A stretch of 39,280 nt of DNA from a virus. Within the stretch, counting starts at the first letter, position 1. Each line of letters begins with the position of its first letter. The position numbers were made by a program, and so were the translations under genes. Shown one piece after another: positions 1 to 39,073 of this stretch. The stretch is taken from the IMG/VR virus record IMGVR_UViG_3300036046_000019, positions 1 to 39,280 of that record; one strand, written 5' to 3'. Under the pieces are notes generated by a model that saw only the letters and a program-made list of their open reading frames with translations, did no database searches and was not told where the DNA came from.

Positions 1-45
1 TTCGTAAACAGCAGGTCGTCGGTTCGACCCCGACCACCGGCTCCA
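1..45 (+). tRNA. tRNA-Thr (CGT), 3' part; probable phage attachment site
   Basis: This is the 3' part of a tRNA cut by the window edge. The anticodon loop TTCGTAA (1-7) has U33, anticodon CGT and A37. It is followed by the anticodon-stem strand ACAGC (8-12), the variable region AGGTC, and the T arm GTCGG-TTCGACC-CCGAC (18-34). The acceptor strand CACCGGC, discriminator T and encoded CCA end at 45. Anticodon CGT reads the Thr codon ACG. Tailed phages and integrative elements often insert at tRNA 3' ends, and phage-type genes start about 190 bases downstream, so this is probably one attachment site. The second copy is not in the window, so attachment is inferred. Confidence 0.88.
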
Positions 46-60
46 CAGAATACCGCATCA

Positions 61-93
61 GAACGCCGCTTCCCTTTTTGGGAAGCGGCGTTC
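61..93 (+). terminator. Perfect 14-bp hairpin after the tRNA
   Basis: The arms GAACGCCGCTTCCC (61-74) and GGGAAGCGGCGTTC (80-93) pair perfectly around a TTTTT loop. It lies 16 bases after the tRNA CCA end. There is no downstream T run, so termination is likely but may not be of the simple intrinsic kind. Confidence 0.6.
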
Positions 94-100
94 GTTGTTG

Positions 101-124
101 GATCGGTCTGTTGATCGGTCTGTT
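101..124 (+). repeat. Tandem 12-bp direct repeat near the attachment site
   Basis: Two abutting exact copies of GATCGGTCTGTT occupy 101-112 and 113-124, between the tRNA hairpin and the first gene. Their place beside the tRNA fits integrase or excisionase arm-type binding sites, but this is only inferred. The rest of the gap up to 235 holds a short dyad (GTGTG...CACAC near 160-175) and two copies of GGAGCTACCA, the second of which contains the ribosome site of the first gene. Confidence 0.45.
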
Positions 125-235
125 CAGGAGCAAATAGGTGATGCCGGGCGCGGCGTGTGGTAGAGACACACACCGCAGGCACCGGAGCTACCAAGCGCCA
201 TACCCGGCGCGCTATTCTACCAGGAGCTACCAGCT

Positions 236-736
236 ATGAAATGGACATCCGCTCTCAGCGCCTTTTGGCGCAGCATCCCCGGCCAGAATCTCCTTGGCCG
301 TCGTGTAAGCAACCTCACCTACGGCGCGGCAGTGCTCGGCTTCGTGTGGCTGGCGCTGCTGGCGTTCGGGTACCAGGCGCGGCAGCATGACGGCGTACTC
401 ATCCCTGGCGTGCTGAGTGTCGAAGTCTCAACCGACTGGCGCGGCTATGCGCTAGCGGCTGTGCTGTTCGTGCTCCTCCTGTTGTTCAATCACGCCATCA
501 CGCGGTCGCTCGAGGCGCGCGGCTACTACGCCGTAGAACATCAAGATCGGTCGGATGATTATCTCGATCGGCCTGCTATCGAGCGGGATATGGAGCGCCT
601 CTGGTTTGAGCGCGCTTGGGATAAGCGGTATCAGCCGGCCACTGGTGAGACGATCGATCTGGACAGCATTCCCGAGTGCGAGCCGGTGCGGCTGCCGTGG
701 GCAGTGCGCGGGGATGTGGCTGAGGTGAGGGAGTGA
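236..736 (+). CDS. Two-helix membrane protein, first gene of accessory cassette
   Basis: A 166-residue protein of unknown function. Two hydrophobic helices are visible (about residues 38-55 and 78-95), with a charged C-terminal tail rich in Asp, Glu and Arg that should lie in the cytoplasm. The ATG is preceded by AGGAG at a usable distance. The stop overlaps the next start (GTGA), so the two are translationally coupled. The gene opens a run of six plus-strand genes that includes a membrane ATPase and a membrane HNH nuclease, so a role in a membrane complex with them is plausible. I recognise no family. Confidence 0.75.
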   Translation: MKWTSALSAFWRSIPGQNLLGRRVSNLTYGAAVLGFVWLALLAFGYQARQHDGVLIPGVLSVEVSTDWRGYALAAVLFVLLLLFNHAITRSLEARGYYAVEHQDRSDDYLDRPAIERDMERLWFERAWDKRYQPATGETIDLDSIPECEPVRLPWAVRGDVAEVRE

Positions 737-930
737 AGCGCTCCAGTTCGCCGCCGGCCGTGCTGCTGCTCGCGTTGCTCGCACTCGCGTTCGGCGGCTA
801 TCTGCTGGTGTTATGGCGACGCGCGCCAGAGGCAAACGGCATTATGCGACCGATCGGCGTGTTGTTCGTGGGCCAGTTCTTCAAGGGGCTGGTGGACTTT
901 GTAATTGAGGAAGTGGCGGTGGCGAGATGA
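733..930 (+). CDS. Small membrane protein (65 aa)
   Basis: It starts with GTG inside the stop of the previous gene (4-base overlap) and ends in an ATGA overlap with the next, so it is part of a tightly coupled series. The product has one clear hydrophobic helix near the N-terminus (about residues 8-27) and a second weaker one (about 38-60). Function unknown. The coupling on both sides is the main reason to believe it is real. Confidence 0.65.
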   Translation: MKRSSSPPAVLLLALLALAFGGYLLVLWRRAPEANGIMRPIGVLFVGQFFKGLVDFVIEEVAVAR

Positions 931-1286
931 CAGACGATCAGGCGTTGCGTCTTAAGTGGTTTAAGCCAGCAGAGTATGCCGCGTGGCTTCGTGGCTTGCG
1001 TACGTTTCTCGCTGAGAAGCCAAGCATCTTTGAATGCGACTGCGAACCAAGCTACGAACCAGACACGAACGCCTGGAACCACGCCGACAAATGCGCCACT
1101 TGGCAAGAAGACCACGCCGATATTGTACTGAGAGAAGCCGCCGATCTGATTGAGCGGCTTGCTGCCGAGGCAACCGATCTGCGAATACTTTTGAAAACCA
1201 TTCGCCTGGGCGTGGATGAGGGGAGCTTAAGCAGCGTCGATATTCGTGTGCTGATCCCGCGCTCGCTTTTTAAGGATGCGCCATGA
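927..1286 (+). CDS. Small soluble acidic protein (119 aa)
   Basis: It begins in an ATGA overlap and ends in another one with the ATPase gene. The product is soluble, with a Cys/His-containing stretch (CDCE, then HADKC, about residues 37-55) that could bind a metal, followed by a helix rich in Ala, Leu and Glu that could form a coiled coil. I do not recognise the family. Its position between membrane genes and the ATPase suggests a cytoplasmic adaptor, which is inference. Confidence 0.65.
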   Translation: MTDDQALRLKWFKPAEYAAWLRGLRTFLAEKPSIFECDCEPSYEPDTNAWNHADKCATWQEDHADIVLREAADLIERLAAEATDLRILLKTIRLGVDEGSLSSVDIRVLIPRSLFKDAP

Positions 1287-2737
1287 GCAACCAAACCCTG
1301 AACGTCAACCGCACGGGCGGCGTGGTCGACGCACTGGACAATTTCCCTGGCGCTGGATTGATGGATTATCACGACGGTGCGCGGGAGTTCAAGCCGAGCT
1401 GGGAGCGCCCGGATTGGCGGGTAGAGCTGGTGCGCGCGTTCGTGCTCCTCGCGTCGCTGGCCGTAGCCTGGCTGTTTTTCGGCCTGTGGAAGACGAGCTA
1501 CTGTTGGGGCGGTCGCAACTACGGCGCGTGTGAGACGCTGCTGTGGTGGGAGCCAGCCGGGGCACTTGTGGCAGTGCTTTTGGTGGTGGGAGTGCCAACC
1601 AGCCGCGTGCTGCTGTGGGCGGCTGCTGAGTGGCGGCTGGCGCAAGCCAGAGCCGCCAGAGTGGCAACGACGTTTAACCGCTTCGGCGACCCACAGCGGA
1701 TTGATGTGCTGCTGCCACTCATCGAAGAGGCGCGGCGCTACAACCTGGCCACCGAGCTGAAGCGTGCCACCGCACCTTACGAGTGGGCACACAGCATCAA
1801 TACATACTCGCCGAGCAATCAGCCGGCTGCGGCGCTTCCGGCACCGGAAACTGCGCCGCTCACCCCAATGCCGCCGGATGCGTGGCTGCCGCTCATTGAT
1901 GAGCAACCGCACTTGCTCCTGGCTGCCGAGACAGGCGGCGGCAAGAGCACGCTGGCCAAGGCCGTGCTGGCCCCGCGCATCGCCGCCGGTGAGCATGCCT
2001 ACATCATCGATCCGCACTCCGACTCGTGGTTCGAGCTGCCGATTATGGGCGGCGGTGAGAACTGGGCAGAAGTTAGAGAGGCGCTTCGGCATGTCGCTGC
2101 TGAGTATGGCCGGCGTATCGACGCACGGGAAGCACACAGGCGCGAGACCGGGGAAGCATTACCAGTGGAGCATTGGACGCGGCTCACGGTGCTCTTGGAC
2201 GAAGCAAACATCACGAAGCTGCGGCTGCACACGGGGCCCCGTGGTCGGCTCACCCCGTGGGAGGAGTTTGCCCAGGTGCTCGGCAGTGGCGCGCGCAAGG
2301 TGCGGATCTCGATCATCCTGCTGTGCCAGTCGGCGAACGTGGATGACCTTGGCCTCTCAGGGCCAATGCGTGAGAACTTCATGCGGATCGCGCTCGATAG
2401 CACCGCCGCACGCAAGCTGGTGCAAGCCGATGAACCCAATGCAGAGCGCAAGGCGCAGTTGCTTGCGGCGCTTGATGGCATGCACTTTCCAGCGGTGGCC
2501 GAGCATCGTGGCCGGGTGCTGCTGCTTGATCGTACAGGCATCCAGCGCGTAGCGACACCAGCGAACGCGCTGCGCGCTGCCTGGCAGCCGCCGATCGTGC
2601 TGCCAGTGGATGACGATGCGGAGCAGCGGCTACGGCAGTTCATCAGCGATCTGAAGGCGAGCGGCGTCACGCGAGAGCGTGCGCGCTCAGAGTTCGGTCT
2701 GAGTTTTGACAATAACCTGTGGGGAGCGGTGGAGTAG
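1283..2737 (+). CDS. Membrane-anchored FtsK/HerA-type ATPase
   Basis: A 484-residue P-loop ATPase of the FtsK/SpoIIIE-HerA-VirD4 class, which moves DNA (or protein-DNA complexes) with ATP. Two membrane helices lie at about 49-68 and 88-110. The Walker A motif AETGGGKST is at 215-223 and Walker B LTVLLDEA at 301-308. A conserved CQS-type stretch follows near 348, as in translocases of this class. The C-terminus (about 440-484) resembles a small helical, winged-helix-like DNA-binding end. The N-terminal anchor and single motor domain recall TraSA/TraB proteins of actinomycete integrative elements rather than chromosomal FtsK, which is longer with four helices. It is coupled to the upstream gene by ATGA. 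What it moves is unknown. Confidence 0.85.
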   Translation: MSNQTLNVNRTGGVVDALDNFPGAGLMDYHDGAREFKPSWERPDWRVELVRAFVLLASLAVAWLFFGLWKTSYCWGGRNYGACETLLWWEPAGALVAVLLVVGVPTSRVLLWAAAEWRLAQARAARVATTFNRFGDPQRIDVLLPLIEEARRYNLATELKRATAPYEWAHSINTYSPSNQPAAALPAPETAPLTPMPPDAWLPLIDEQPHLLLAAETGGGKSTLAKAVLAPRIAAGEHAYIIDPHSDSWFELPIMGGGENWAEVREALRHVAAEYGRRIDAREAHRRETGEALPVEHWTRLTVLLDEANITKLRLHTGPRGRLTPWEEFAQVLGSGARKVRISIILLCQSANVDDLGLSGPMRENFMRIALDSTAARKLVQADEPNAERKAQLLAALDGMHFPAVAEHRGRVLLLDRTGIQRVATPANALRAAWQPPIVLPVDDDAEQRLRQFISDLKASGVTRERARSEFGLSFDNNLWGAVE

Positions 2738-2825
2738 GCGTCGTTCTCAGACAGACCAGCAGACGAAGCGGCCACCGACAGGCAACCTACACCATACCGA
2801 CAGGATTTCAGGTTTGGCACTTGCA

Positions 2826-2842
2826 TGCGGCGCATTGCCGCA
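2826..2842 (+). other. Small hairpin before the HNH gene
   Basis: TGCGGC and GCCGCA pair around a GCATT loop in the 125-base gap between the ATPase and HNH genes. It is too weak to be a clear terminator and may only shape the leader of the next gene. I see no good promoter in this gap. Confidence 0.3.
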
Positions 2843-2862
2843 TCAGAACAGGATAGAAGCCG

Positions 2863-3372
2863 ATGAACACAATCATTATTTGGGCGCTGCTCCTCGTTTC
2901 GGTAGTGGTACAGAGCGTGTTCTTTCTGGTGCCATCACGCTGGTCTCGTATCGGAATTTACTGCTGTGCCAGCATTGGCGGGATTATGTGCCTCCTACTC
3001 ATTGCTACCACTGATGATGTTGTGCAGTTTGTGATTGCGCTCGGCTCGGTGTTATGCCTCTGGTGGTTCGGCAGTCCCCTGTACCGCTCGATGCCGAGTT
3101 TCCTTCCCGCATTGCCATCACCCGGCTTTAATCGCCGTGTGGCTCTCCAAAAGAACGGTGGGCGGCATACTGAGACCGAGTGGAATGCATTGAAGCGCAT
3201 ACAGCACGGCCGATGCCTATCTTGTGGACAAAGGCGCCCACTTACGAAAGATCATATTGTGCCGGTCTACCATGGTGGCAGCGACGATATTAGCAACATT
3301 CAGGGCTTGTGCCAGCCATGCAATTCGGCCAAGGGCACACGCACTATTGATTACCGAAAGGCGCGCTCGTGA
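2863..3372 (+). CDS. Membrane-anchored HNH endonuclease
   Basis: A 169-residue protein with about three hydrophobic helices (residues 3-22, 30-48, 52-70) followed by a complete HNH nuclease domain (about 100-165). Visible motif elements are CxxC (C118, C121), the DH pair (D130-H131), H137, N145, and the second knuckle CxxCN (C150, C153, N154). HNH enzymes cut DNA with one metal ion held in a beta-beta-alpha fold, here stabilised by a four-Cys zinc site. Most phage HNH proteins are soluble and sit beside terminase; this one is tied to the membrane and coupled (GTGA) to another membrane protein. It could cut DNA entering through the membrane or act with the ATPase upstream. The catalytic residues appear intact. 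Confidence 0.85.
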   Translation: MNTIIIWALLLVSVVVQSVFFLVPSRWSRIGIYCCASIGGIMCLLLIATTDDVVQFVIALGSVLCLWWFGSPLYRSMPSFLPALPSPGFNRRVALQKNGGRHTETEWNALKRIQHGRCLSCGQRRPLTKDHIVPVYHGGSDDISNIQGLCQPCNSAKGTRTIDYRKARS

Positions 3373-3965
3373 CAACGCTTACACTGCCGCAGCAGGGCAC
3401 CGGCCGCTTGGCCGCATTGTACTGGCGGCTTATTGCTCTGCCCTGGCATGCTATCAAGGTCTACCCACCAGTATTGCTCATCGCCAGTTCAGCAGCTTAT
3501 GCATCGGCCCAATTTGCGGCACAGCACGCGATCTTCCCGTTCCCCTTCAACGTCATGCAGGCCGTGGCATTTGAGTGGGTGTATCTCGGGGCGCTGGCCC
3601 TAGCCGGCCAGCGACGCGGCTTATGGTTCTACACCACTGTGGGTTTTGGTGCCTTCACCAGCGCCCTATACATGTTCCTGCATGCCGCAACACAGAACGG
3701 TTGGCTACGGCAGTTCGACGGCGATCCGCTCGCACAGTTTCTGTTCGCGCTCGCGCACGCACTACCACTCACGCTTGTGGGTGTGTCCTATATGCTTCTC
3801 ATTCATGTGCATCTTCAGGATGCACAGACGAGGGCCGATCACGATGCCAAAGTTCTGGCTGAGCGCCGGCAGTGTCCCTACTGCGGCGAGTGGCGCAAGA
3901 ACCAGGAGAGTGTCTACAGCCACTACCGGACGTGCCTGAAACATCCGAGCAAGGTGCAGCCCTAG
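3369..3965 (+). CDS. Four-helix membrane protein with C-terminal zinc knuckle
   Basis: It starts with GTG overlapping the HNH stop. The 198-residue product has about four hydrophobic segments (residues 33-50, 62-80, 86-107, 122-146). A short cytoplasmic tail follows with CxxC...HxxxC (C169, C172, H185, C189), a small C2HC zinc-finger-like knuckle. Such a tail could bind nucleic acid or a partner at the membrane. It is the last gene of the cassette and is followed by a hairpin facing the convergent late operon. I do not recognise the family. Confidence 0.72.
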   Translation: MTTLTLPQQGTGRLAALYWRLIALPWHAIKVYPPVLLIASSAAYASAQFAAQHAIFPFPFNVMQAVAFEWVYLGALALAGQRRGLWFYTTVGFGAFTSALYMFLHAATQNGWLRQFDGDPLAQFLFALAHALPLTLVGVSYMLLIHVHLQDAQTRADHDAKVLAERRQCPYCGEWRKNQESVYSHYRTCLKHPSKVQP

Positions 3966-4020
3966 CTCACCCGTGCTATACTCGCACTCCGGCATGCTTC
4001 AGCCGGACTGATGCAGGCAC

Positions 4021-4046
4021 ACGGCCCCGCGCTAAGGCGGGGCTGT
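4021..4046. terminator. Hairpin between convergent operons
   Basis: ACGGCCCCGC (4021-4030) pairs with GCGGGGCTGT (4037-4046) around a 6-base loop, one G-U pair included. It sits between the ends of the plus-strand accessory cassette and the minus-strand late operon, so it can end transcripts from both sides. A smaller dyad CCGGC...GCCGG lies just upstream (about 3990-4006). Neither has a long T run. Confidence 0.6.
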
Positions 4047-4053
4047 GGTGTGT

Positions 4054-4454: not shown

Positions 4455-6296
4455 CTAGGCGTCGGATGTTGGTAATCCGTTGTTGGTGTAGCGGATGAAG
4501 TCCGCCTGTCGTTGGCCAATTGTTTCAGTCGGCGTAAATGCAAGCGCCGAGCGTGCGAGTGCCACTTCGAGGGTGGCCGGCGGGTTTTCGAGCTCGATCA
4601 CCACTTCATCCGGCGTCGCCGGATCAAATACCCGCCGCGCCACCCGCACCGTGCCAAGCTGATCGATGGTATCGGCGTTGCCCAGCACGAGGTTGCGGAT
4701 CAGAAGCGTGTCGCCCGACTCGATCATACGCAGCGGCACGGGCGCACCTGCGGGCGTGGTCAGTCGGCGGATAGCAATCGCCAATTGTGGCGGCGGATCG
4801 TCGGTATCCGCGAGCGCCAGATCACGCAAGCCCTCAGCTTCAGCGGCGTTTGTCGTGGTGGTGTTGAGTGCAGCTTGCCGTGTCAGTCCCCAGCGCGCTA
4901 CGCTTTGGCCTGCCGTTGCTGCCGCCGTTCGCACGGGCCGGCCACTGGCGTCCTCATAGGTGGCCGTAAGGTGATTTCGCAGGCTCTCAATCGAGCGGCC
5001 AATCGTAATGTCGGACACATCCACCGCATACGTCTGCGTCCAAGCTGCTTGATCGCGTGGGCGCAAGTACAACAATTGATTGCGTGACACACCACAGGCC
5101 AGTTGTTCACCGGTGGCGAGCGTTTCGAGGACGCTGGCCGGACTGGCATCGCCGTACGCCACATCGCGCCGATCGAGCGTGCTCTGTTGGATAAGTGTGG
5201 TCGCACTGCGAAGTTGTCCAGGATTGAGCGTGCTCACAATGCTGGCGAGGTGCGCCGCAATATCGGAGGCCAGCACACGCTGGGCGCGTACACTGTTGCC
5301 GGCGCTCTTGGCAGCCACGAGTGCCGTGATGCCAATCGTGGCACCGGCAACGCTCGTTACCGTCACACGCTCGGGGTTGGTGCCACCGAGGTAGAGTGAT
5401 TGACCGACGACGATATTGGTGGCGCTCACAACTGTGATGCTTGTGGCTCCGAGGATTGCGCCGGCGCTGAGCGTGGTATCAACAGCGAGCGGATTCGTGG
5501 TAATTCGAAGATTGGTGATTCGCATCGCCACATCGCCGGTTTGCCCAGCAAAAGTCGCCGCTGCGTTGTTGCTGGACAGCCCGTACGTGAGCGCATTGAC
5601 TAACGTTGTCAGGGGGGCGCAAATCGATCCGGTAAATGCCGCCCCGGGGGCAGCAGTGACCGTGCCTATCCACAAATTGGCGCTCACTGTCCAGGCGGTG
5701 TTGATAGGACTGGGGGCCGTCCAGCTTTGACAGTTCGCAATCCAGCCTGCGGTACTGCCGCCGTAGTAATAGTCAAAGGCAATGTTCTGAATGAGGCGCG
5801 ATCCGAGACTTGGCGCTGCGTAGGCTGCATAGCCAACAATCGGTGTGTTGCCCTGGACGCTGTTGTTTTCCGGCTCTACATTGAGCCGGTTATTGGTGTC
5901 GAATCGAAAGCGCCCGGGGTATGATGTGGCGATTTGTTGCGCGGTCGGCTGAAACCATCCCGCCACACTCGTATCGCTCCACAGCGCTGTGTCTCTGGCA
6001 TCCGTCAGTGCTCGCCATGGCCCATACGTGGTCAGCGTGAGCACGCCCTGGCTCGATGCTTGTGGATCCTCCACACGCCCACAATAGACGAGTTCGCCTG
6101 TGTCATAGACCTCCACCCACGGTGTGCCCGGCCGCTCAAGCAGCGCAAGTTGCCGACCGAGGCTCGGCAGCTGGAGCGAAATGGCTAAATCGCCATCGCC
6201 GTGTGCCGCATGCGCGATTGGTGCGCTTTCGACGTAGGGTGTAAGATCCAGGATCTGCACGCCGCCGGGTTGCTCAACCAGATGGATACTGATCAT
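4455..6296 (-). CDS. Minor tail protein, tail hub-like
   Basis: A 613-residue structural protein just downstream of the tape measure and distal tail genes, where siphophages keep tail hub (Tal/gp27-like) proteins. The first 90 residues have the beta-rich pattern of hub proteins: a position vector region, then WVEVYDTGELVYCGRVED, a stretch common in phage proteins that describe a local frame at the tail tip. The middle (about 130-290) looks like an inserted carbohydrate-binding or jelly-roll type domain. The C-terminal half returns to hub-like sequence. ATGA overlap with the upstream gene. No peptidase or lysozyme motif is visible, so I call it structural. Confidence 0.65.
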   Translation of the reverse strand: MISIHLVEQPGGVQILDLTPYVESAPIAHAAHGDGDLAISLQLPSLGRQLALLERPGTPWVEVYDTGELVYCGRVEDPQASSQGVLTLTTYGPWRALTDARDTALWSDTSVAGWFQPTAQQIATSYPGRFRFDTNNRLNVEPENNSVQGNTPIVGYAAYAAPSLGSRLIQNIAFDYYYGGSTAGWIANCQSWTAPSPINTAWTVSANLWIGTVTAAPGAAFTGSICAPLTTLVNALTYGLSSNNAAATFAGQTGDVAMRITNLRITTNPLAVDTTLSAGAILGATSITVVSATNIVVGQSLYLGGTNPERVTVTSVAGATIGITALVAAKSAGNSVRAQRVLASDIAAHLASIVSTLNPGQLRSATTLIQQSTLDRRDVAYGDASPASVLETLATGEQLACGVSRNQLLYLRPRDQAAWTQTYAVDVSDITIGRSIESLRNHLTATYEDASGRPVRTAAATAGQSVARWGLTRQAALNTTTTNAAEAEGLRDLALADTDDPPPQLAIAIRRLTTPAGAPVPLRMIESGDTLLIRNLVLGNADTIDQLGTVRVARRVFDPATPDEVVIELENPPATLEVALARSALAFTPTETIGQRQADFIRYTNNGLPTSDA

Positions 6297-7768
6297 TGCG
6301 GCACTCTTTGGGCGCGCCGCCTGCTGGCACGCAATGTGACGGCGATCGGATTGACGCTGATATTGGTCAGCCGCCAGTATTGGCGATAGGTGGCAAGCAA
6401 GAGCCCACTCATGGCAGCGCTGGTTGGATTCGGCTGCGTTGTGCCGACAGTGAAAAATGCATCTCCGCCGTAGCGCACCACCGGACGTGTGAGTGCGCCC
6501 GTGTCCGCAGTGTCACCACCAACGAACGGATCGACTCCGAATGTACTCAGATCCGTTTCATACGCGCGTATGCCCAGCGTTGCCGTACTCGGTAGCTCTG
6601 GTGCCGTCACATACAATGCGCGCGCCAGTGGATCGGCCATGTCGATAACAGCAATTTGCGAAATGTCCAGCACGGGGCCGTCCACCTGGGTTGTTTGTAC
6701 AATGAGCGCAATGCCGTTTTGCAAGTCAACCACGGGCACAATGCCCACCGCAACGATCTGTGGATAGATGCTGCCAACAACGCGGAGTGGCGTGAGCCGT
6801 GTACGAACAAGCGTGGTACTTGTGGTGCCGCCAGTAGGGAGACCGCCTATTCCGAGCGAAAAGACGTTTGCTGATGGCCGACACACAACCACAAACAGTG
6901 GGCGCCGCATCGTGCGAATACCTGCCAGCGGATGACCACCAAGCGAACACGGATCGATGTTGATCTCTTCGACTTCGTAATTCCCCGCTGTCGGAGCAAA
7001 GCGCAGTATCGTGCCAGGTTGATTTGCCGGTACCCCATCGGTGTGAGCGCTCCAATCGCCTGTGAGCTGAAACCCTGACACCGATGCGTTGCCGGGTGCT
7101 ACTTGCAGCGCAATGTTTCCTGATTGTGCCCACAGCATGGCGGTATTGAGCCCGGGCCATGATGAAAACGGGTTGAGTGCCGTTGTCCATGACCAGCGCA
7201 CAAACGCCGGGCTTTCGGTTTGGTCTGCACCAGTGAATGTCACTGTTTGGATCGTAGGTTGATTTGCCGCGCTCGTGGTCTGTGTTTCCTCGACAACGCG
7301 CCATTCCGCACGCCGCGTAATTGTGAATGTGAGGGGAACGGCCCATCCACCAATCTGCTGCGGTGTGGGCATGAGGAGCAGCGGTTCAGCTGCGACATGC
7401 ACAATAAGTGCGTCATAGCGCTGTGCGCTCCCCTGTGCCTGCGCGTAGAGACGCAGCGGTGCGACGCTGCCAAGCGGCAAATTGCCATTGCGTGTCAGCG
7501 CTGCACGCTCAATAAGTTGCAGCAGGCGATCCGCCCAAAAAAGCGCTTCATGCGGAGTTGCCCCGCGCGCGAGCACAAGCAATGACTCGGTGGCCGTTTG
7601 ATATGGCCCAAGGCCGCCAAGTCCTTCCGATGCACGCCGTGGCGGCAAAATCGGCACGTATCCCTGTTCTTGTAGCGCATACGGGCTGTTTGATGCCGTA
7701 AACTCTGCGAGCAGCCCGCCGCTTGCAAGCGCATTGCTTTGATCGCCGAGTGCAAGATACTCCCACAT
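6293..7768 (-). CDS. Distal tail-like structural protein
   Basis: 491 residues, directly after the tape measure gene (4-base gap; GGGGAGG ribosome site) and coupled to the hub-like gene by ATGA. The N-terminal 170 residues fit a distal tail (Dit)-type core of mixed beta strands. The rest is beta-rich with a TGDWS...FAPTAGNYEV region resembling phage tail beta-sandwich domains. The order tape measure, Dit, hub is standard in siphophages, and the call rests mainly on that order. It is longer than a minimal Dit (about 250 residues), so the extra C-terminal domains may be decoration or receptor-binding modules. Confidence 0.58.
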   Translation of the reverse strand: MWEYLALGDQSNALASGGLLAEFTASNSPYALQEQGYVPILPPRRASEGLGGLGPYQTATESLLVLARGATPHEALFWADRLLQLIERAALTRNGNLPLGSVAPLRLYAQAQGSAQRYDALIVHVAAEPLLLMPTPQQIGGWAVPLTFTITRRAEWRVVEETQTTSAANQPTIQTVTFTGADQTESPAFVRWSWTTALNPFSSWPGLNTAMLWAQSGNIALQVAPGNASVSGFQLTGDWSAHTDGVPANQPGTILRFAPTAGNYEVEEINIDPCSLGGHPLAGIRTMRRPLFVVVCRPSANVFSLGIGGLPTGGTTSTTLVRTRLTPLRVVGSIYPQIVAVGIVPVVDLQNGIALIVQTTQVDGPVLDISQIAVIDMADPLARALYVTAPELPSTATLGIRAYETDLSTFGVDPFVGGDTADTGALTRPVVRYGGDAFFTVGTTQPNPTSAAMSGLLLATYRQYWRLTNISVNPIAVTLRASRRRAQRVPQ

Positions 7769-11141: not shown

Positions 11142-12659
11142 TTAGATGACCGAGGCCACGCCAAGCTGAATAACACCGTCGCCGCCGACGCCGAACAGTC
11201 CAGCCACGCCAATCGTGTTGACGTTCACACTATCCGGCCCGCCAGTTGGCACCACGGCGCGGTTGCCGCGCTCGAACACGGGCCAGTTTTGTAGCCGTGC
11301 GCCGTCGCGTGTCCAGGTGTTGCCGCCATCGATTGTGCAGACAAGCCACGCTGTGCTTGTGGCATCGTGCAAAATGTAGCCAACTTCCTGCGTGACAAAT
11401 ACCACATCGCGCACCACGCCTGCGTTCGAGCCGGGGAAGGCTTTGGCTGTCCATGTGTTGCCGCCGTCTTCTGTGACGTACAGCAGGCCCGTGGCGGTGC
11501 CGACAATCCAGCGCTTGCTGGTCAGTACTTGCACGGCGTTCAGCGCTGGGGTGCTCGGGATGACGGTCACACTACTCCAGCTGATGCCGCCGTTCTGGCT
11601 CGCACGCACCACCCCAGACTGACCTACGGCGACGATCGTTTGCCCACGCCCATGGATCCGGTTCAGTTGCACGCCCGCACCGTTATCAATGAGGGTTGGA
11701 GCCACGGTAATATCGCGGGTGCGATGGATGATACTGGCGTCGCCGACAAACCAGGCCGTACGCCCGTTCACCCAGCAGTCACGATACGCGCCGGTGGTAA
11801 GCGATGTCCAGGCACCCGGCTGTGCCGTGTCTTTGTTGATCGGCGTGTAAAAGATCGCCGGTGTGGCCCGCACCCACACAAACAGATAGCCGCTCATCGT
11901 ATCGATGCCATCGGGGGCATTGGTGGAGCCGATGCTGTCAATCAGGTCGGTTTGCCACGTCACGCCGTAGTCGGTCGAGTAGACAATCTGACCTGGCGCG
12001 GCTGGGCTGCCGACGTTGGCGCGTGTCACGTAGTAGCTCACGCGGCTGCCGTCGTTCTCCAGCCCGCATTCGCCGCAGGTCTGCGCCGGCAGATACACGC
12101 CGTCGATCACTTCCTGCACCACCTGCGTGGCCGCTTCGTCGCCAAAGCCGAGCGGGCCAACCGGATACACGCGCTCACCGGTGAACGGCACACTGCTCAT
12201 GAGCGCGCTATCGTCGCTGCCCCCGGCGCGTGCGCCGGGGTCGCTGTCTTGCGCGATGCCACCGGCCCGAATCAGGAGCTGGTTCCAGCCGCGATTGAGA
12301 TCATCGAGGCGTTCACATCGGCCCGCCACCTCGTAGAACGTGACCGCGCAACGCAGCCGCGTGAGCTGCCGCGCAATTGCCTGGTGATACTCGGCATACT
12401 CGACTGTCCATGTGGGCAGGCCGGGTGCAGCCTTTGTGCGCCCACGCAGCACGTACTCACGCGGATTGGCCGGGTCTGGGCTCCAAATCGGATCGACACT
12501 CCCCGATTGCGGGATACTGCCACCCGTGATGTAGCCAATCTGCGCGTCGTCTGAGCCGAGCAGATAGGCGATGTTGCCTGGTGCCGCCCCTCCTACCTGT
12601 TGGAAGAAGCGCACCATCTGCATGGTACGAACCTGGTCTGCGGACAAATCAATTGGCAT
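11142..12659 (-). CDS. Major tail protein with C-terminal Asp-box beta-propeller
   Basis: 505 residues; AAGGAG seven bases before ATG. The position between connector and tail chaperones marks the tail tube gene. Residues 1-215 fit a tail tube core, without a motif I can cite. Residues about 220-470 form a propeller of the BNR/YCF48 type, with Asp-box-like motifs STDYGVTW (228), SQNGGISW (354), TEDGGNTW (396) and TIDGGNTW (442). Such propellers are known in sialidases, sortilins and the photosystem assembly factor YCF48. They serve mainly for binding and give no catalytic activity on their own. A decorated tail tube (as with Ig domains in other phages) is the simplest reading. It could instead be a separate tail decoration protein if the tube is encoded elsewhere. 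Confidence 0.68.
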   Translation of the reverse strand: MPIDLSADQVRTMQMVRFFQQVGGAAPGNIAYLLGSDDAQIGYITGGSIPQSGSVDPIWSPDPANPREYVLRGRTKAAPGLPTWTVEYAEYHQAIARQLTRLRCAVTFYEVAGRCERLDDLNRGWNQLLIRAGGIAQDSDPGARAGGSDDSALMSSVPFTGERVYPVGPLGFGDEAATQVVQEVIDGVYLPAQTCGECGLENDGSRVSYYVTRANVGSPAAPGQIVYSTDYGVTWQTDLIDSIGSTNAPDGIDTMSGYLFVWVRATPAIFYTPINKDTAQPGAWTSLTTGAYRDCWVNGRTAWFVGDASIIHRTRDITVAPTLIDNGAGVQLNRIHGRGQTIVAVGQSGVVRASQNGGISWSSVTVIPSTPALNAVQVLTSKRWIVGTATGLLYVTEDGGNTWTAKAFPGSNAGVVRDVVFVTQEVGYILHDATSTAWLVCTIDGGNTWTRDGARLQNWPVFERGNRAVVPTGGPDSVNVNTIGVAGLFGVGGDGVIQLGVASVI

Positions 12660-14239: not shown

Positions 14240-14749
14240 CTATCCCTCCCAGTGCAACCGATTGTAGGCCGACAGCGCCTCGTCGACACACACAACGCGC
14301 ACGCCTTTTGCAACCAGTGCTTCCACCCACAGCCCATCGCCGCCATAACTCAGATCAAGGCGCGTATCGCCGATGGCATCACGCCGGATGATGAGCTGTC
14401 CCACATCGATGTGGTCAAGCCTAAGCGCATCCGGCGTGGCATGGCGTACCGCGCCGCCCCGCAGGAGCTGTGAGACCGCAAAGGCATCGGCGTCGGGATG
14501 TTCCGCTTCGAGCACCACGAGCCGCTCGAACAGCGCCGGCATGGCGAGCGTGTCATCATCCAAGATCCACACCCAGCCATCCGTGATGCTGTCTAACATG
14601 GCGTTCTTGAGCGCTTGCCCACCGACGTGTGCGCGTGCGAGGTCAAAGCGCCAGTGCCACACCAGATCAAGATTGGCCGGTGCAAGGCTCTGCGCGAGCT
14701 GTGGCAGGTTCTCGGGCCGGGTAATGGCCGTCAGAATGTGCAGTTTCAT
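14240..14749 (-). CDS. Small GT-A-like glycosyltransferase
   Basis: 169 residues. The N-terminal strand KLHILTAITRPENL is typical of family 2-like nucleotide-binding folds. WILDDDTLAMP (about 61-71) carries the DxD motif that holds the metal and the UDP-sugar. A later RRDAIGDTRLDLSYGGDGLW stretch fits the acceptor side. It starts in an ATGA overlap with the methyltransferase gene. It is shorter than usual GT2 enzymes (about 220-250) but has the core. The acceptor is unknown; the neighbours point to a virion protein or a phage-made glycan. Confidence 0.72.
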   Translation of the reverse strand: MKLHILTAITRPENLPQLAQSLAPANLDLVWHWRFDLARAHVGGQALKNAMLDSITDGWVWILDDDTLAMPALFERLVVLEAEHPDADAFAVSQLLRGGAVRHATPDALRLDHIDVGQLIIRRDAIGDTRLDLSYGGDGLWVEALVAKGVRVVCVDEALSAYNRLHWEG

Positions 14750-15321
14750 AGATAGACTATTCCTATGCCGCCCCAGTTCACATCTTCAGACGCCACCAGC
14801 TCCTGCGTGACGAAACCCTGCCGACGAATCTGTTGCCACACGGGTGCAACGTCGATCCAGGCTTGCGCGCCGCGCCCCGGCAGGATGTCATGCAGCGCGA
14901 TGATGCCGCTGGGCACCGCGAGCGGCAAGTAGTTTTCCCAGTCGCGCTGCACCTCGTGGCGCGCGTGTCCAGCGTCCAAGAAGATGAAGTCGAATGGCCC
15001 GAACTCGGCAGCTCGCACAATGATTGCCGGATCGGCACTGTTCCCCTGAAGGAACGTCACGCCGGGAAAGTCAGCGCGCGGGTCAGCCGCCGTAAACGTA
15101 TCAATGCTTACAAGCTGCGGCGTCCATGCGGCATCAGCCCACAACTTGAGCGTGCCGCCGTGGTAGGTGCCGACTTCGAGCACGCGGCGTGGCTGGCGCA
15201 GCCGGTAGAGTGTCAAAAGCTGCGTAATCTCCCACTGGCGTTGCAAGAGGCCCACGGGTGTGAGGTCATGCACGTCGCGCACGGTGTCACGCCAGATGTT
15301 GGTTAGTTGACTGCCGGCCAT
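14746..15321 (-). CDS. Class I SAM-dependent methyltransferase
   Basis: 191 residues of the Methyltransf_24/cephalosporin-hydroxylase-like group. Motif I VLEVGTYHGGTLKLW begins near residue 48. An acidic loop follows (SIDTF, about 93), then FDFIFLDAGHARHEVQRDWENYLPLAVPSGIIALHDI (116 onward), with the D and H residues that bind metal in this group. Enzymes of this group methylate sugars or small molecules, often in glycan clusters. Set between glycosyltransferase genes it may methylate a sugar placed on the virion, which is inferred. The start overlaps the upstream gene by 19 bases; GGAAGG precedes ATG. Confidence 0.8.
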   Translation of the reverse strand: MAGSQLTNIWRDTVRDVHDLTPVGLLQRQWEITQLLTLYRLRQPRRVLEVGTYHGGTLKLWADAAWTPQLVSIDTFTAADPRADFPGVTFLQGNSADPAIIVRAAEFGPFDFIFLDAGHARHEVQRDWENYLPLAVPSGIIALHDILPGRGAQAWIDVAPVWQQIRRQGFVTQELVASEDVNWGGIGIVYL

Positions 15322-15971
15322 CCCGCTGCCTTCCGTTGCTCGAACAACGCCCGATCGTGCGCCCAGCGCGCCTTGCCTTCCTCGTAGACCGCATCATTGG
15401 GCGCGCCAACCATTTCGTGATCGTGATAGAGCACGGCCCATGGCAGCGTGCCGTACACGCCCGCAGCTGTAGCCCGCTCTACAATCTCGGTATCGCCGCA
15501 CATGTGGTCATACCAGACCGGCCAGCCCATCGTGTCCATCAGCCAGGCGCGCTCGATGAGAAAGTGCGCCGTCGAATTAATGCCGTCGTTGAAGCCAAGG
15601 ACTTTCAGTCGACCCCCAGTACGGTCATAGGCTGCCACGGCGCGCGCCAGCCACTGCGCGCCGGGTAGGAGGTCATTGGCGAGATTGACGAGCAGCGGCG
15701 CATCCGTGCGTCCTGTTGCATGGGCGAGTGCATTCCAGTAGCCCGCCCGTGGCCGGCGATGCTCTTCGGCCAGAAAGTCAAGTGCAAAGCGTCCGAGTGG
15801 CAAGTCACTCATGTCAAGCGCATCGAGCGACGCATACACATCACGATCGTTATCACACACACACACAAGCCGCCAATCCACATTGCCCGCCGTCGCCAAC
15901 AGCCGCTGCACGTTGCGCGCGGTTTGCTCGGCACGCCCCCGGCACGGCAATATGGCGGCAACGCGGGTCAT
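15303..15971 (-). CDS. GT-A-like glycosyltransferase
   Basis: 222 residues. The N-terminus VAAILPCRGRAEQTARNVQRLL is a GT2-type start. NLANDLLPGAQWL (about 96-108) holds the place of the DxD motif as N-x-N-D, which is unusual but also seen in phage relatives. WYDHMCGDTEIVERATAAG gives a second acidic site. Together this is a full GT-A fold length. It is coupled by ATGA to the upstream glycosyltransferase. The specificity cannot be read from the sequence. Confidence 0.72.
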   Translation of the reverse strand: MTRVAAILPCRGRAEQTARNVQRLLATAGNVDWRLVCVCDNDRDVYASLDALDMSDLPLGRFALDFLAEEHRRPRAGYWNALAHATGRTDAPLLVNLANDLLPGAQWLARAVAAYDRTGGRLKVLGFNDGINSTAHFLIERAWLMDTMGWPVWYDHMCGDTEIVERATAAGVYGTLPWAVLYHDHEMVGAPNDAVYEEGKARWAHDRALFEQRKAAGWPAVN

Positions 15972-17086
15972 TTGGCACGGCTCCGAGGCTGGCCCATTAA
16001 TACGCGCTGTGACTCGATTGGAAGTTGTGCTGTCAAATTTCCGTACATCTCGTTACCGCTAAACACCGCAGCCATATCCCCTGCGGTACCCACCACCACA
16101 TCGGGCGGCGGCACGAACGGCGCAGCCACAACCCGCCGCACCGTGCCGAAGCTCTCAATCCATGCCATGTCTTGCGCTTGCACGTCCACTAGGCGGCCAC
16201 GAGCCAGCTTGTACACCTCGCCAGTGTGCGGACTTCGGAGCGTGAATGAGCCTTGCTGCTCGCCGATGTATTGATAGCGCACCCGCCCTGATGCCGGGGT
16301 CTCTCCCTGCGGCAGGCCAAGGACAGCCGCTTGCGCCACTTCCTGTGCGGCTTTGTTTCCGCCACAACACGCCGCCATAGCAATCCTCCCACTTGCATCA
16401 CGGTAGCGATCGAGCACCGTCGCCATGCGGGCTTGGTTCGCAATCGGATCGGCCACAAAGTGCCGCATTCGATCGCCTTCAGCTTGCCGATACACCAACG
16501 TCGGCACTGGCACGCGCTGGCCGCAGTGCCCAGCGCGTGCAAGCCGTAGCCACAGTGTCCAATCTTCCCATGCGTCAATTGCCTCATCAAAGCCGCCCAC
16601 CGCCCGAACGGCTACCGTGGGGATAAGCGCTGTGACGACATGGAGATTGATGGTATCGAGGCCCATGCGCCGCCATCCGGTTGTAGGATCGTAGTCCGTG
16701 TGCTGGCGATATTCATACGCCCCAACCACCACCGGATGGCCGCTCTCATTCCGTAACGGCTGGCCATGCTCATTGAGCACATAGCTATCGCCGTACACAT
16801 ACCCCGCGTTGCCTGCGGCATAGGCTCTGAGATACGTTTCGAGCGCGGTGGGCAGCAGGTAATCGTCGGCGTCCAAGAACACCACGAACGTGCCGCGCGC
16901 CTGTTCGATCCCTCGGTTGCGACACACGGCCGGGCCGTCGCCCGCTGTATCGTGGATGACGATGTGCTCCCACCACGAGCGTGGGATGGTTTGCCAGTCC
17001 AGTGAGGCGCGCGCCACCGCCACATGCTGCGTGTGGCGCGGCCCCACGGGCGTGACAATCGAGATGAGCGGCTGGCCTCCCTCCAT
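15968..17086 (-). CDS. Family 2 glycosyltransferase fused to a phage-type C-terminal domain
   Basis: 372 residues; AGGAG nine bases before ATG, directly after the major capsid gene. Residues 1-235 are a GT2 domain with ISIVTPVGPR at the start, FLDADDYLLP (about 70-79, DxD) and FDEAIDAWEDWTLWLRLA, whose ED pair is the usual catalytic base region. From about 238 it changes to a small domain beginning with CCGG, with VRYQYIGEQQGSFTLRSPHT and GRLVDVQAQD. This resembles short phage domains found near head genes. The fusion suggests the enzyme is targeted to a virion component, perhaps the capsid protein encoded just upstream. It is the first gene of the glycosylation cassette. Confidence 0.82.
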   Translation of the reverse strand: MEGGQPLISIVTPVGPRHTQHVAVARASLDWQTIPRSWWEHIVIHDTAGDGPAVCRNRGIEQARGTFVVFLDADDYLLPTALETYLRAYAAGNAGYVYGDSYVLNEHGQPLRNESGHPVVVGAYEYRQHTDYDPTTGWRRMGLDTINLHVVTALIPTVAVRAVGGFDEAIDAWEDWTLWLRLARAGHCGQRVPVPTLVYRQAEGDRMRHFVADPIANQARMATVLDRYRDASGRIAMAACCGGNKAAQEVAQAAVLGLPQGETPASGRVRYQYIGEQQGSFTLRSPHTGEVYKLARGRLVDVQAQDMAWIESFGTVRRVVAAPFVPPPDVVVGTAGDMAAVFSGNEMYGNLTAQLPIESQRVLMGQPRSRAK

Positions 17087-34266: not shown

Positions 34267-35112
34267 ATGCAAATCACAAACCGCTGGACCGATGAGACGA
34301 TCTACGACGCACCCGACGCCACTACGATGCGCGAGGCCGTGATGCTCGCGCTGAAGCATGGTGCCGTCCTGAGGCGTGCCGACCTGAGCGATGCCGTCCT
34401 GAGCGATGCCGACCTGCGCGGTGCCGACCTGAGCGATGCCGACCTGCGCGGTGCCGACCTGAGGCGTGCCGTCCTGAGCGATGCCGACCTGCGCGGTGCC
34501 GACCTGAGGCGTGCCGTCCTGAGCGATGCCGACCTGCGCGATGCCGACCTGCGCGATGCCGACCTGAGCGGTGCCGTCCTGAGCGATGCCGACCTGAGGC
34601 GTGCCGACCTGAGCGGTGCCGTCCTGAGCGATGCCGACCTGAGCGGTGCCGTCCTGAGGCGTGCCGTCCTGAGCGATGCCGACCTGAGGCGTGCCGACCT
34701 GAGCGGTGCCGTCCTGAGCGATGCCGTCCTGAGCGATGCCGTCCTGAGGCGTGCCGTCCTGAGGCGTGCCGACCTGCGCGGTGCCGACCTGAGCGATGCC
34801 AAAGAGGACGTGATCAGCATCCTCAACATCGTACCCAACGAGGTTGCAGGACTGCGGCTGGCGCTCGTGGAGGGGCGTGTCAACGGCCAGATGTATCGGG
34901 GCGAGTGCGCGTGCCTCGTGGGCACGATAGCCAACCTGCGGCACTGCCACCACACGAGCATTCCCGGTCTGCATCCCGATCCTGATCGGCCAGCCGAGCG
35001 GCTGTTCCTGGCTATTCGACAAGGCGACACGCCGGAGAGCAATCCGATCGCGCAGATCGTGGTTGGCTGGATTGACGAGTGGCTGGCAGCGCGTGAGGCG
35101 GTTCCAGCGTGA
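34267..35112 (+). CDS. Pentapeptide-repeat protein with conserved C-terminal domain
   Basis: 281 residues; AAAGGAG before ATG. Residues about 34-178 are 29 unbroken pentapeptide repeats of A(D/V)LxxA type, which fold as a four-sided right-handed beta-helix. Such helices can mimic DNA (as in MfpA/Qnr, which bind gyrase) or act as spacers. The C-terminal 100 residues (NEVAGLRLALVEGRVNGQMYRGECACLVGTIANLRHC...) are a separate domain also found at the end of other phage pentapeptide proteins. A role in protecting or modifying host topoisomerase is possible but not shown. The repeats could change in number. Confidence 0.82.
   Translation: MQITNRWTDETIYDAPDATTMREAVMLALKHGAVLRRADLSDAVLSDADLRGADLSDADLRGADLRRAVLSDADLRGADLRRAVLSDADLRDADLRDADLSGAVLSDADLRRADLSGAVLSDADLSGAVLRRAVLSDADLRRADLSGAVLSDAVLSDAVLRRAVLRRADLRGADLSDAKEDVISILNIVPNEVAGLRLALVEGRVNGQMYRGECACLVGTIANLRHCHHTSIPGLHPDPDRPAERLFLAIRQGDTPESNPIAQIVVGWIDEWLAAREAVPA
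34366..34800 (+). repeat. 29 tandem 15-base repeats
   Basis: Twenty-nine units of G(A/T)C-CTG-two codons-GCC, with no gaps. The two middle codons come from a small set (AGCGAT, AGGCGT, CGCGGT, CGCGAT, AGCGGT). First codon is GAC or GTC. The near identity makes gain or loss of units by slippage likely. It also leaves long open frames on the opposite strand that are not genes. Confidence 0.9.
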
Positions 35113-36444: not shown

Positions 36445-36617
36445 AGCCCGTACCGCGCCGGCGGATGCGCCCTCGGCTCCGCCGGCCTGCCTTCGACACG
36501 CACCTGAGCCTGTGGCTTGATACGGCGATCGTGAATATCGAACAGGCACAGCACCCGTGGGAACGGCGCTTCTGGCGCCGGGTGAAGCGATTTGTAGAAC
36601 GTCGGATCGGTCTGTAA
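36441..36617 (+). CDS. Small basic protein before the primase (58 aa)
   Basis: 58 residues from GTG at 36441 in the stop of the annealing gene (GTGA); its TAA overlaps the primase ATG (TAATG). The N-terminus is Arg/Pro-rich, the rest an amphipathic helix rich in Arg and Trp. It may help load the primase-helicase. No family known. Confidence 0.58.
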   Translation: MKPVPRRRMRPRLRRPAFDTHLSLWLDTAIVNIEQAQHPWERRFWRRVKRFVERRIGL

Positions 36618-39073
36618 TGTATGACGCCGTTCCAACTGAATTAACAGCCCTACCCCAATGGGTGACGTGGCGCTTTGAACCTGATCCAAAGCACCCCGAC
36701 AAGCCCAAGAAGGTGCCCTACAGCCCACAAAGCGGCCGGCGCGCATCAACAACCAACGCGCAGACATGGGCCACATTCGCAGTGGCGGTGCGCGCACAAG
36801 CCTCCCGGCGACATGACGGCGTAGGATTTGTGTTCAGTCCAGACGATCCGTTCGTGGGTATCGACCTGGATGACTGCATCGCCGAGGGTGAGATCGCGCC
36901 GTGGGCACAAGCCATTCTCGACACAATGCAGAGCTACAGCGAAGTGTCGCCGAGCGGCCAGGGCATCAAGTTGATCATCGCTGGTGAGCTGCCGAACGAT
37001 GCCGCAGTCAAGACTGAGCACATCGAAATCTACGGCAAGGGTCGCTATTTCACTATCACCGGCCAGCACGTTGCTGATACCCCCACCACGGTGCGGAACG
37101 TCAACGGCGAACTGGCAAAGCTGGTGGAAGCCACACGGCCCAAGCCTGCTGCCCTGCCTGCGCTTGACACGCGGCCGGCGGCGCCGGAATACCTACGTGT
37201 ATGGGCCGATCGCATCATTGACGATGCGGTGAGCCGTGTGGCGCTGGCCGCGCCGAACACCCACCACAACACACGGTTGGATATGGCGCGGTGGGTGGGT
37301 GGGCTCATCCCTCACGGTCTCGCAGACGCCGAAGGCGTAGCGCGTCGGCTGTACCAGGCGCGCATTCCACAAGCTCACCACCAGCAGGAATACAAAGCCA
37401 TTCTCGACGGCCTGCGCCTCGGCGCTGATAAGCCGCTCGAATTGCCTGAGCCGCCCCCACAGCCGCTCTTTGATGCGGCCGGCGTGGCGTACTGCCCTAC
37501 GCACCGTGTTGCGCTGCCGACTGCCAAGAACGGCAACGGCTACAAGTGCCACCAGAAAGATGACACCACCGCCACCGGCTGGTGTGATTTCTGGTGGAAA
37601 GGAGAAGGCTATACCCAACCAACTCGCTCCGAGTCGCGCACGCTTCCGAGGAACGGCGCCGACGCTGGTTCGGGTACCACCGACGCCGCTAGCCGCACCG
37701 ATGGGATAGGTAATGTGGGCCAGCCCCCGATTGCCCCAACCGTGGTAGATCGGGTAAGCGCACCAGCCACCCTCGCTGGGCAGGCATCGCGGTTCGTGTT
37801 GTACTCCATCGCAGCGCTTCGGGACTTGCCGCCGGTGGTGTGGTTGCTCGAAGGCGAGATCCCCGCTCATCTGTTTACGGTGGTGTGTGGCCCGAGCGGC
37901 GCTGGCAAGTCGCTGCTTGGGGTGGATTACGCGATCCGAGTAGCGCGGCGCTATGCCGACTCGGCCGTGATCTACGTGGCTGCTGAGGGCGGCAGCGGCT
38001 ACCGTGCCCGCGTCGATGCGTGGCTTGCTCATCACCAGATCGAGGAGCCCACGAACCTGCACTTTGTTGTGCGTGACGTACCGCTCCTTGAACCACTCGC
38101 CGTAGCTGAGTTCATCGCCACGATCCAGCCTCACAAGCCCTGCCTTGTGTTCTTCGACACCCTCGCCCGCTGTATGGTCGGTGGTGACGAGAACAGTGCC
38201 AAGGACATGGGGCTACTCATCCGGGGATGTGACACGGTGCGCCACGAGCTTGGCGCGGCCGTGGTGGTGGTACATCACGCGGGCAAGAGCGGCAGCGGCT
38301 ACCGGGGCTCATCGGCGCTGTACGCGGCGGCTGACAATTGGATCGACGTGTCCAATGACGACGGGTTGATCACCGTCTCAGGGGGCAAGGCGAAGGATTG
38401 GAAGCCGTTCGATCCGCGCTACCTGCGCATGGTTGAAGCTGGCGAGAGCATCGTGCTGGTGCCACACAATCAAGTGGACATGAAGAAAGCCGCACTGAGC
38501 GAAGGCCAGCGCAAGGTACTCGAAACACTGGCGATGGATATCTTCCTTGATGCCGGCGCGAAGCGGGCCGAACTGGTGACCGCCACCGGGCTCGCAGAGA
38601 CCACGATCTACAAGGTCCTGAGCCGGTTGAAACGTGACACGATGATAATCCAAAGCAAGAAAGGCGACCCCTATACCATCGCCGCGAAGGGTTTGGCAAC
38701 TATCCGCGACTATCACCGCGCGCTACGGCAGCAGAACGCCCAACTATCACAACTATCTTCCAACTATACCGAACTATCCGAACCCGGCTATACCAACTAT
38801 ACCAACTATATCTCTCCCCCTTTAGGGGGAGATAGAGAGATAGTTGATAGTTCGGGTGGAGAGAGTTTGGAAAGTCCGAGATCAGAACCCACCGAGGAAC
38901 TGTTCCCTGACGATTCGCCCCTGGCATCGATCCCCGAACATCTGCGGCTCACCACGCGGATGATGCTGAACAGCGACCTGGAACAGAACCAGGAGGCAGC
39001 ACGGCAGCGGTGCGAGGCGTATGGGGCTGATTACGAGGCGGCACGGGCGTATGTGCGAGGGGGTGGGCAGTGA
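36617..39073 (+). CDS. Primase-polymerase/helicase replication protein
   Basis: 818 residues from the ATG at 36617. Residues about 1-190 are a NrS-1-like primase-polymerase (VTWRFEP...KKVPYSPQSGRRAS...), with the metal-binding GIDLDDC near 80-86 and SPSGQGIKLI after it. A helical region and a Cys/His patch follow (CPTHRVAL...KCHQKDD...GWCDFWWKG, about 292-332). The RepA/RecA-type helicase has Walker A CGPSGAGKS (424-432), Walker B LVFFDTLARC (about 508-517) and VVHHAGKSGSGYRGSSA. A winged helix-turn-helix lies at about 628-690. The low-complexity segment about 708-745 is coded by the iteron region. It should prime and unwind DNA at the phage origin. Confidence 0.85.
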   Translation: MYDAVPTELTALPQWVTWRFEPDPKHPDKPKKVPYSPQSGRRASTTNAQTWATFAVAVRAQASRRHDGVGFVFSPDDPFVGIDLDDCIAEGEIAPWAQAILDTMQSYSEVSPSGQGIKLIIAGELPNDAAVKTEHIEIYGKGRYFTITGQHVADTPTTVRNVNGELAKLVEATRPKPAALPALDTRPAAPEYLRVWADRIIDDAVSRVALAAPNTHHNTRLDMARWVGGLIPHGLADAEGVARRLYQARIPQAHHQQEYKAILDGLRLGADKPLELPEPPPQPLFDAAGVAYCPTHRVALPTAKNGNGYKCHQKDDTTATGWCDFWWKGEGYTQPTRSESRTLPRNGADAGSGTTDAASRTDGIGNVGQPPIAPTVVDRVSAPATLAGQASRFVLYSIAALRDLPPVVWLLEGEIPAHLFTVVCGPSGAGKSLLGVDYAIRVARRYADSAVIYVAAEGGSGYRARVDAWLAHHQIEEPTNLHFVVRDVPLLEPLAVAEFIATIQPHKPCLVFFDTLARCMVGGDENSAKDMGLLIRGCDTVRHELGAAVVVVHHAGKSGSGYRGSSALYAAADNWIDVSNDDGLITVSGGKAKDWKPFDPRYLRMVEAGESIVLVPHNQVDMKKAALSEGQRKVLETLAMDIFLDAGAKRAELVTATGLAETTIYKVLSRLKRDTMIIQSKKGDPYTIAAKGLATIRDYHRALRQQNAQLSQLSSNYTELSEPGYTNYTNYISPPLGGDREIVDSSGGESLESPRSEPTEELFPDDSPLASIPEHLRLTTRMMLNSDLEQNQEAARQRCEAYGADYEAARAYVRGGGQ
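38742..38852 (+). other. AACTAT iterons with hairpin: possible replication origin
   Basis: Six direct AACTAT copies start at 38742, 38751, 38762, 38772, 38795 and 38804, about one helix turn apart except for one double gap. Two inverted copies (ATAGTT) are at 38840 and 38847. Between them TCTCCCCC pairs with GGGGGAGA around TTTA (about 38812-38831). The region is AT-rich compared with its surroundings and lies inside the initiator gene, as the lambda origin lies in O. The coded peptide is low-complexity, so the DNA, not the protein, appears to be under constraint. Confidence 0.6.

Follow-up and report, generated by a model that had tools for sequence, protein, structure and literature searches.

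The start of this viral sequence carries half of a tRNA gene, read as a phage attachment core, and, beyond it, a run of six genes that leads up to the tail genes. One of the six would encode a membrane-anchored ATPase, and the question raised by the locus is what a phage does with such a motor, and which of the genes around it belong to the same machine. The window (the whole stretch of DNA analysed) is the linear IMG/VR virus record IMGVR_UViG_3300036046_000019, of 39,280 bases, and the features needed here are as follows.

1-45, plus strand: 3′ half of a tRNA-Thr(CGT), read as the attachment-site core (TTCGTAA anticodon loop, T arm, CCA end)
101-125, plus strand: two tandem copies of GATCGGTCTGTT, inside the attachment-core edge (sequence)
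236-736, plus strand: small protein with two transmembrane (TM) helices, no relative found (hydropathy, homology searches)
733-930, plus strand: 65-residue protein with two TM helices, no relative found (hydropathy, homology searches)
927-1286, plus strand: small soluble protein, no relative found (hydropathy, homology searches)
1283-2737, plus strand: membrane-anchored FtsK/TcpA-like ATPase, predicted DNA translocase and core of the module (two TM helices, Walker A/B, TcpA match)
2863-3372, plus strand: HNH nuclease behind three TM helices, probably an inserted passenger (PF01844, codon use)
3369-3965, plus strand: membrane protein whose C-terminus bears a zinc finger (CPYC...H...C); recurs beside the ATPase as its conserved partner (hydropathy, identity to L129/L130)

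The attachment site and its surroundings

ARAGORN calls no tRNA on the record because only the 3′ half of one is present; it is the sequence of the anticodon loop that assigns this half to Thr-CGT. Its reading as an attachment core is supported by a 7.8-kb phage contig (L036), in which 40 of 46 bases are repeated (at 2154) between a tyrosine integrase gene (PHROG E 2.6e-48) and a similar cassette, the core there being flanked on both sides by 23-bp direct repeats. The order in L036 runs: tyrosine integrase, small Cro-like ORF, tRNA-Thr core, HNH, small membrane protein, ATPase, zinc protein and then, on the opposite strand, a relative of the tail gene found at 4455-6296 in the window; the cassette therefore sits between attP and tail genes in two different phages. 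The tandem GATCGGTCTGTT copies are possible integrase arm sites. Neither an integrase nor the second attachment end is seen in the 39,280-base record, which ends in the early operon.

Among the window genes are those for both terminase subunits (large and small), the tape measure, an amidase and primase/helicase functions; the primase-like product of 36557-39073 finds matches among the phage primase PHROGs but none in PF09250. Within the head-tail region, a minus-strand run of glycosyltransferase and methyltransferase genes (14240-17086; PF10111 1.1e-11, PF13578 1.7e-11) perhaps serves virion or surface modification, and a minus-strand tail-region protein (11142-12659) matches BNR/YCF48-like propellers (PF14870 1.2e-8). 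On the plus strand, the early operon includes a pentapeptide-repeat protein (34267-35112; PF00805 6.4e-49), the gene for which consists of 15-bp repeats in a long array.

Six genes, of which two recur

A preliminary description of this DNA had proposed six plus-strand genes, nearly all with 4-base overlaps, encoding two small membrane proteins, a small soluble protein, an anchored FtsK/HerA motor, an HNH nuclease behind three membrane helices and a membrane protein with a zinc knuckle. This inventory holds. All six ORFs are present, the overlap is seen at four of the five junctions (the lone exception being a 125-base gap between the ATPase and HNH genes), and hydropathy gives two TM helices for each of the first two proteins, none for the third, two for the ATPase and three for the HNH protein (PF01844, E 3.4e-12); the last has four weaker hydrophobic stretches and a C-terminal zinc finger. 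By codon score the annotated frame is the best of six for every one of these genes. Scans for promoters and terminators yielded no excess of matches over shuffled sequence. The notion of one six-gene cassette fares less well: only the ATPase and the zinc protein recur elsewhere, and the first three small proteins find no relative among 9,015 ORFs from 131 loci.

A motor related to TcpA and FtsK

The ATPase shows the motifs of its superfamily—Walker A GGGKST (218), Walker B LLDEA (304) and QS (349)—and its predicted fold matches those of TcpA, FtsK and HerA, in keeping with the anchored motor first proposed. With phmmer against the PDB, the best match is TcpA of plasmid pCW3 (E 1.2e-4); the family profile ranks FtsK first (2.5e-14), followed by TcpA (8e-9) and TrwB (2.5e-6), with TcpA giving a longer aligned stretch than FtsK. 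Against Pfam, eight of eleven family members match FtsK_SpoIIIE (PF01580, best 1.5e-7) and nine of eleven match DUF87 at E 0.1 or better. The window ATPase itself (P0001) has no PF01580 match at E 1 or better and its zinc-finger partner has no Pfam match, both of which count against the DNA-moving function that we favour below.

A full-length model built from two sequences (pLDDT 38) was set aside. The model of the ATPase domain (pLDDT 77, pTM 0.69) has TcpA as its closest structure in Foldseek (E 9e-7), and VIA-align likewise places TcpA first (Z 16.8; 3.2 Å over 219 residues), followed by FtsK (15.5), the type VII ATPases and then HerA of defence complexes (13.4 or below). Judged by motifs and predicted fold, the protein is a P-loop motor of the FtsK/HerA superfamily, and it fits the TcpA-type coupling proteins in having a predicted N-terminal TM anchor and lying nearer to FtsK/TcpA than to VirD4.

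In our tree, the window motor groups with those of phage contigs L129-L131 (98/98), within a wider clade (99/99) that adds L036, L042 and elements of the C. aurantiacus type; the deeper branching order is unsure because of long branches. Weak motor matches also occur in 61 plasmid records, at least 53 of which (39 Streptomyces, 8 Planktothrix and one each from six other genera) belong to genera that we take to be filamentous or mycelial; with sampling bias uncontrolled, this is only a hint of filamentous hosts. More distant relatives of the motor (L080 3-10450, where there is a second FtsK/HerA-like ATPase; L083 17011-18330) have large secreted or polytopic membrane proteins nearby, and possibly mark a larger transfer apparatus of Chloroflexia.

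The zinc-finger partner

Full-length relatives of the ATPase are found in four phage contigs: L036 (39% identity) and L129, L130 and L131 (36–38% in tblastn). In each of these, as in the window (there with the HNH gene in between), it is adjacent to a gene for the zinc protein, which is 44–47% identical to its L129/L130 counterparts (E 1e-39 to 1e-41) and 24% identical to that of L036. The association holds in the opposite direction: L131 came from a scan that used only the zinc protein, and there the ATPase adjoins the zinc gene. In Chloroflexia genomes the zinc-protein profile gives nine strong matches (about E 5e-33 or better), all nine with an ATPase adjacent or one gene away; L071, L042, L072, L083 and L081 contributed to that profile, and L115, L073, L116 and L117 lay outside it. 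In total, five pairs (L131, L115, L073, L116 and L117) were recovered by the zinc protein alone, none of them in its profiles. The pair is present in L116, a contig that also encodes a phage capsid protein (PF05065 9.6e-30), and at a minimum of eight further loci in Chloroflexia, with a 4-base overlap of the two genes in L042, L071, L072 and L117. Among the weaker zinc-protein matches (L118-L125), no ATPase lies within the stretch fetched.

Single-sequence scans of viral contigs with the ATPase, HNH or zinc protein found nothing, the relatives coming from profile scans. A scan of genome contigs with a two-sequence ATPase alignment gave no confirmed relative, so it was a relative of the terminase, in Kouleothrix aurantiaca, that led to the host class. 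No such ATPase is seen in any of 27 phage records related through the terminase, most of them fragments, and this counts against the transfer reading. The zinc protein was considered, and rejected, as a phylum-wide marker of Chloroflexota (6 of 400 phylum genomes positive, all six also in the class set).

In L073 the zinc gene beside the motor (6883-7623) is interrupted by a stop codon, and this copy looks decayed. Directly upstream of many motor genes (L075, L076, L081, L082, L087, L088, L090 and L117) lies a second membrane protein, with two to four TM helices and often a C-terminal PER-like motif; this may be another conserved partner of the motor.

The HNH gene and the case for defence

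The HNH motif of the nuclease is complete and includes two Cys pairs, and the preliminary description had treated ‘membrane ATPase plus membrane HNH’ as a unit that might catch and cut incoming DNA. On checking co-occurrence, we see that this HNH gene does not accompany the motor elsewhere, the conserved partner being the zinc-finger membrane protein instead. The HNH genes of L036 and L129 differ in build from that of the window, its N-terminal membrane part has no relative among the 9,015 ORFs from 131 loci, and 135 of 158 Chloroflexia genomes contain HNH domains, so that mere co-presence with the ATPase means little. Relatives of the HNH domain itself are soluble proteins, and several of them have repeats that, in our reading, resemble those of free-standing homing-type endonucleases. 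Scored against the phage's own codon usage, the gene gives -0.051 per codon, the other five +0.089 to +0.192. These atypical codons, the soluble domain relatives and a placement between genes that elsewhere overlap or adjoin make the HNH gene probably an inserted passenger.

Superinfection exclusion or anti-phage defence would have a membrane-bound motor and nuclease acting on incoming DNA. In its favour, a membrane-tied HNH gene lies next door, many lysogenic conversion genes sit beside att, as this cassette does, and the ATPase belongs to the same superfamily as the HerA-nuclease and MADS (mad8) ATPases, with a weak, partial PADLOC match to mad8 (E 5.5e-7). Set against this, there is no conserved nuclease partner, TcpA and FtsK both outscore the HerA structures from defence systems, and in other genomes the pair has genes for replication and recombination around it, among which we recognise no defence system. 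Membership of MADS was rejected, since none of the remaining cassette genes matches a mad component. Of the readings considered, defence has the least support, and we hold it to be improbable; segregation or a role in the lytic cycle are left to weigh.

Genomic context of the pair

At most non-phage Chloroflexia loci the pair is accompanied by replication and recombinase genes of plasmid or ICE type: L071 encodes a serine recombinase together with a DUF3987 helicase and a CHC2/Toprim primase; there are a tyrosine recombinase and CHC2 primase in L072; Prim-Pol, D5_N and, collinear with the motor, a membrane-anchored wall hydrolase of the NlpC/P60 type in L081; ParB and an integrase-like ORF in L083; and a ParA-like gene in L115. 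In L129-L131 the pair lies within phage early operons, preceded by what we read as a RecA-like ATPase and an SSB-like protein and followed, after motor and zinc protein in that order, by a UDG-DNA polymerase A fusion; no tyrosine integrase was found in these records.

This last arrangement fits a role in replication or segregation as well as one in transfer. Were the motor to anchor replicating or excised element DNA, or to clear it from a closing septum, daughter cells would keep the element and no transfer would take place. FtsK, the second-best fold match, is a septal segregation motor, and in L129-L131 the pair sits between the SSB-like gene and DNA polymerase A. The Spd proteins of Streptomyces also influence plasmid stability (PMC4170104). 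However, some pair-bearing elements already have their own ParB (L083) or ParA-like gene (L115), the closest match, TcpA, is a conjugation protein, and a wall hydrolase stands in line with the motor in L081. We regard segregation or maintenance without transfer as rather unlikely.

The same early operons, with no tyrosine integrase found beside them, would suit an auxiliary factor of the lytic cycle that aids entry of the genome, its packaging or its replication at the membrane, and viral packaging ATPases share the fold. The phage carries its own terminase subunits, however, related phages appear without the pair, and the pair is also found in elements with no recognised virion genes, and we hold such a function to be improbable.

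A model for the module

The two genes form a conserved pair—a motor of the FtsK/TcpA kind with a predicted membrane anchor, and its zinc-finger partner—present both in phages and in replicating integrative elements; that they constitute a conserved DNA-moving module of Chloroflexia phages and integrative elements is well supported. The preliminary description had put motor-nuclease defence first and offered a DNA-transfer module as its alternative; the alternative proves the better half, with TcpA closest by sequence and fold, and with the pair found in integrative elements beside recombinases and replication helicases/primases. A two-gene FtsK/TcpA-type translocation module, common to these phages and elements and used for transfer or for spread along a filament, is the reading we tentatively prefer, at somewhat under an even chance.

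On this reading, the ATPase would be a hexamer (by homology), anchored through its two N-terminal helices and located at the membrane or septum, where, like TraB of Streptomyces, it would drive double-stranded DNA of the element from one side to the other. The zinc finger of the four-helix membrane protein would probably bind DNA or the motor, making this protein a docking or spreading factor, as SpdB2 is for TraB; the HNH gene would be a later insert. Cell-to-cell transfer we infer by analogy: an excised or replicating phage genome could pass into the neighbouring cell of the filament with no need of virions. The fullest version of this idea, namely a class of Chloroflexia phage that spreads both as virions and as naked dsDNA, the latter crossing septa by means of a phage-borne FtsK/TcpA motor and zinc-finger partner shared with conjugation-like elements, we think unlikely.

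Comparison with known systems

TcpA of Clostridium perfringens pCW3 is the best match by sequence and by fold, sharing the N-terminal membrane anchor and RecA-like motor domain, but the two are only about 16% identical. On its own plasmid TcpA acts together with a relaxase and a type IV secretion system, whereas we recognise no relaxase, VirB4-type or type IV secretion gene among the scanned part of the ORFs of this incomplete record, a point against transfer. We know of no zinc-finger membrane partner in the tcp locus. TcpA is described as having FtsK, and not the VirD4-type coupling proteins, for its nearer kin, and as a candidate mover of dsDNA (PMC12857230); proteins of its type are also carried by small integrative mobilizable elements (PMC5357655).

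AICEs are recognised by a Tra protein with the FtsK/SpoIIIE domain PF01580 (PMC3218068), which the relatives of the window ATPase match and the ATPase itself does not, by Int together with RepSA, RepAM or Prim-Pol, and by a clt locus of 8-bp repeats close to tra; integrase is absent from the incomplete record and present in L036, and the primase-like protein lacks PF09250. We considered AICE membership and do not claim it. The TraB/FtsK recognition repeat GACCCGGA was not found, and positions 1-4053 hold no convincing cluster of clt-like octamers, which may count against transfer. A single GC-rich octamer cluster was rejected as a clt candidate, lying inside a coding region and being unconvincing.

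The zinc protein resembles SpdB2 in architecture only. A possible kinship with Pfam DUF2637/Spd was unconfirmed, a Pfam scan of seven family members giving no Spd-kind membrane-domain family (SpdB2 itself was compared by architecture only). The partner differs from that of TraB in its zinc finger and in showing no homology to Spd families at the level of Pfam, and the module differs in riding on a tailed phage, in its Chloroflexia hosts and in that no clt repeats were found.

We found no published account of the ATPase-zinc protein pair, nor any open-access account of the transfer of integrative elements in Chloroflexota. For dsDNA transfer in Streptomyces one FtsK-like protein, TraB, is enough (PMC3218068, PMC12857230), and its interaction partner SpdB2 is a membrane protein that binds DNA (PMC4170104). 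The features in common with this system, as found in Streptomyces plasmids and AICEs, are the following: a single FtsK-type motor with weak sequence kinship to plasmid Tra proteins, an integral membrane partner (DNA-binding in the case of SpdB2), integrative elements with recombinase and primase-type replication, and filamentous hosts. A pair found in both tailed phages and integrative elements is a concrete candidate for DNA transfer in filamentous bacteria beyond the actinomycetes, and, as a shared DNA-moving machine, would connect phages with elements of the conjugative type.
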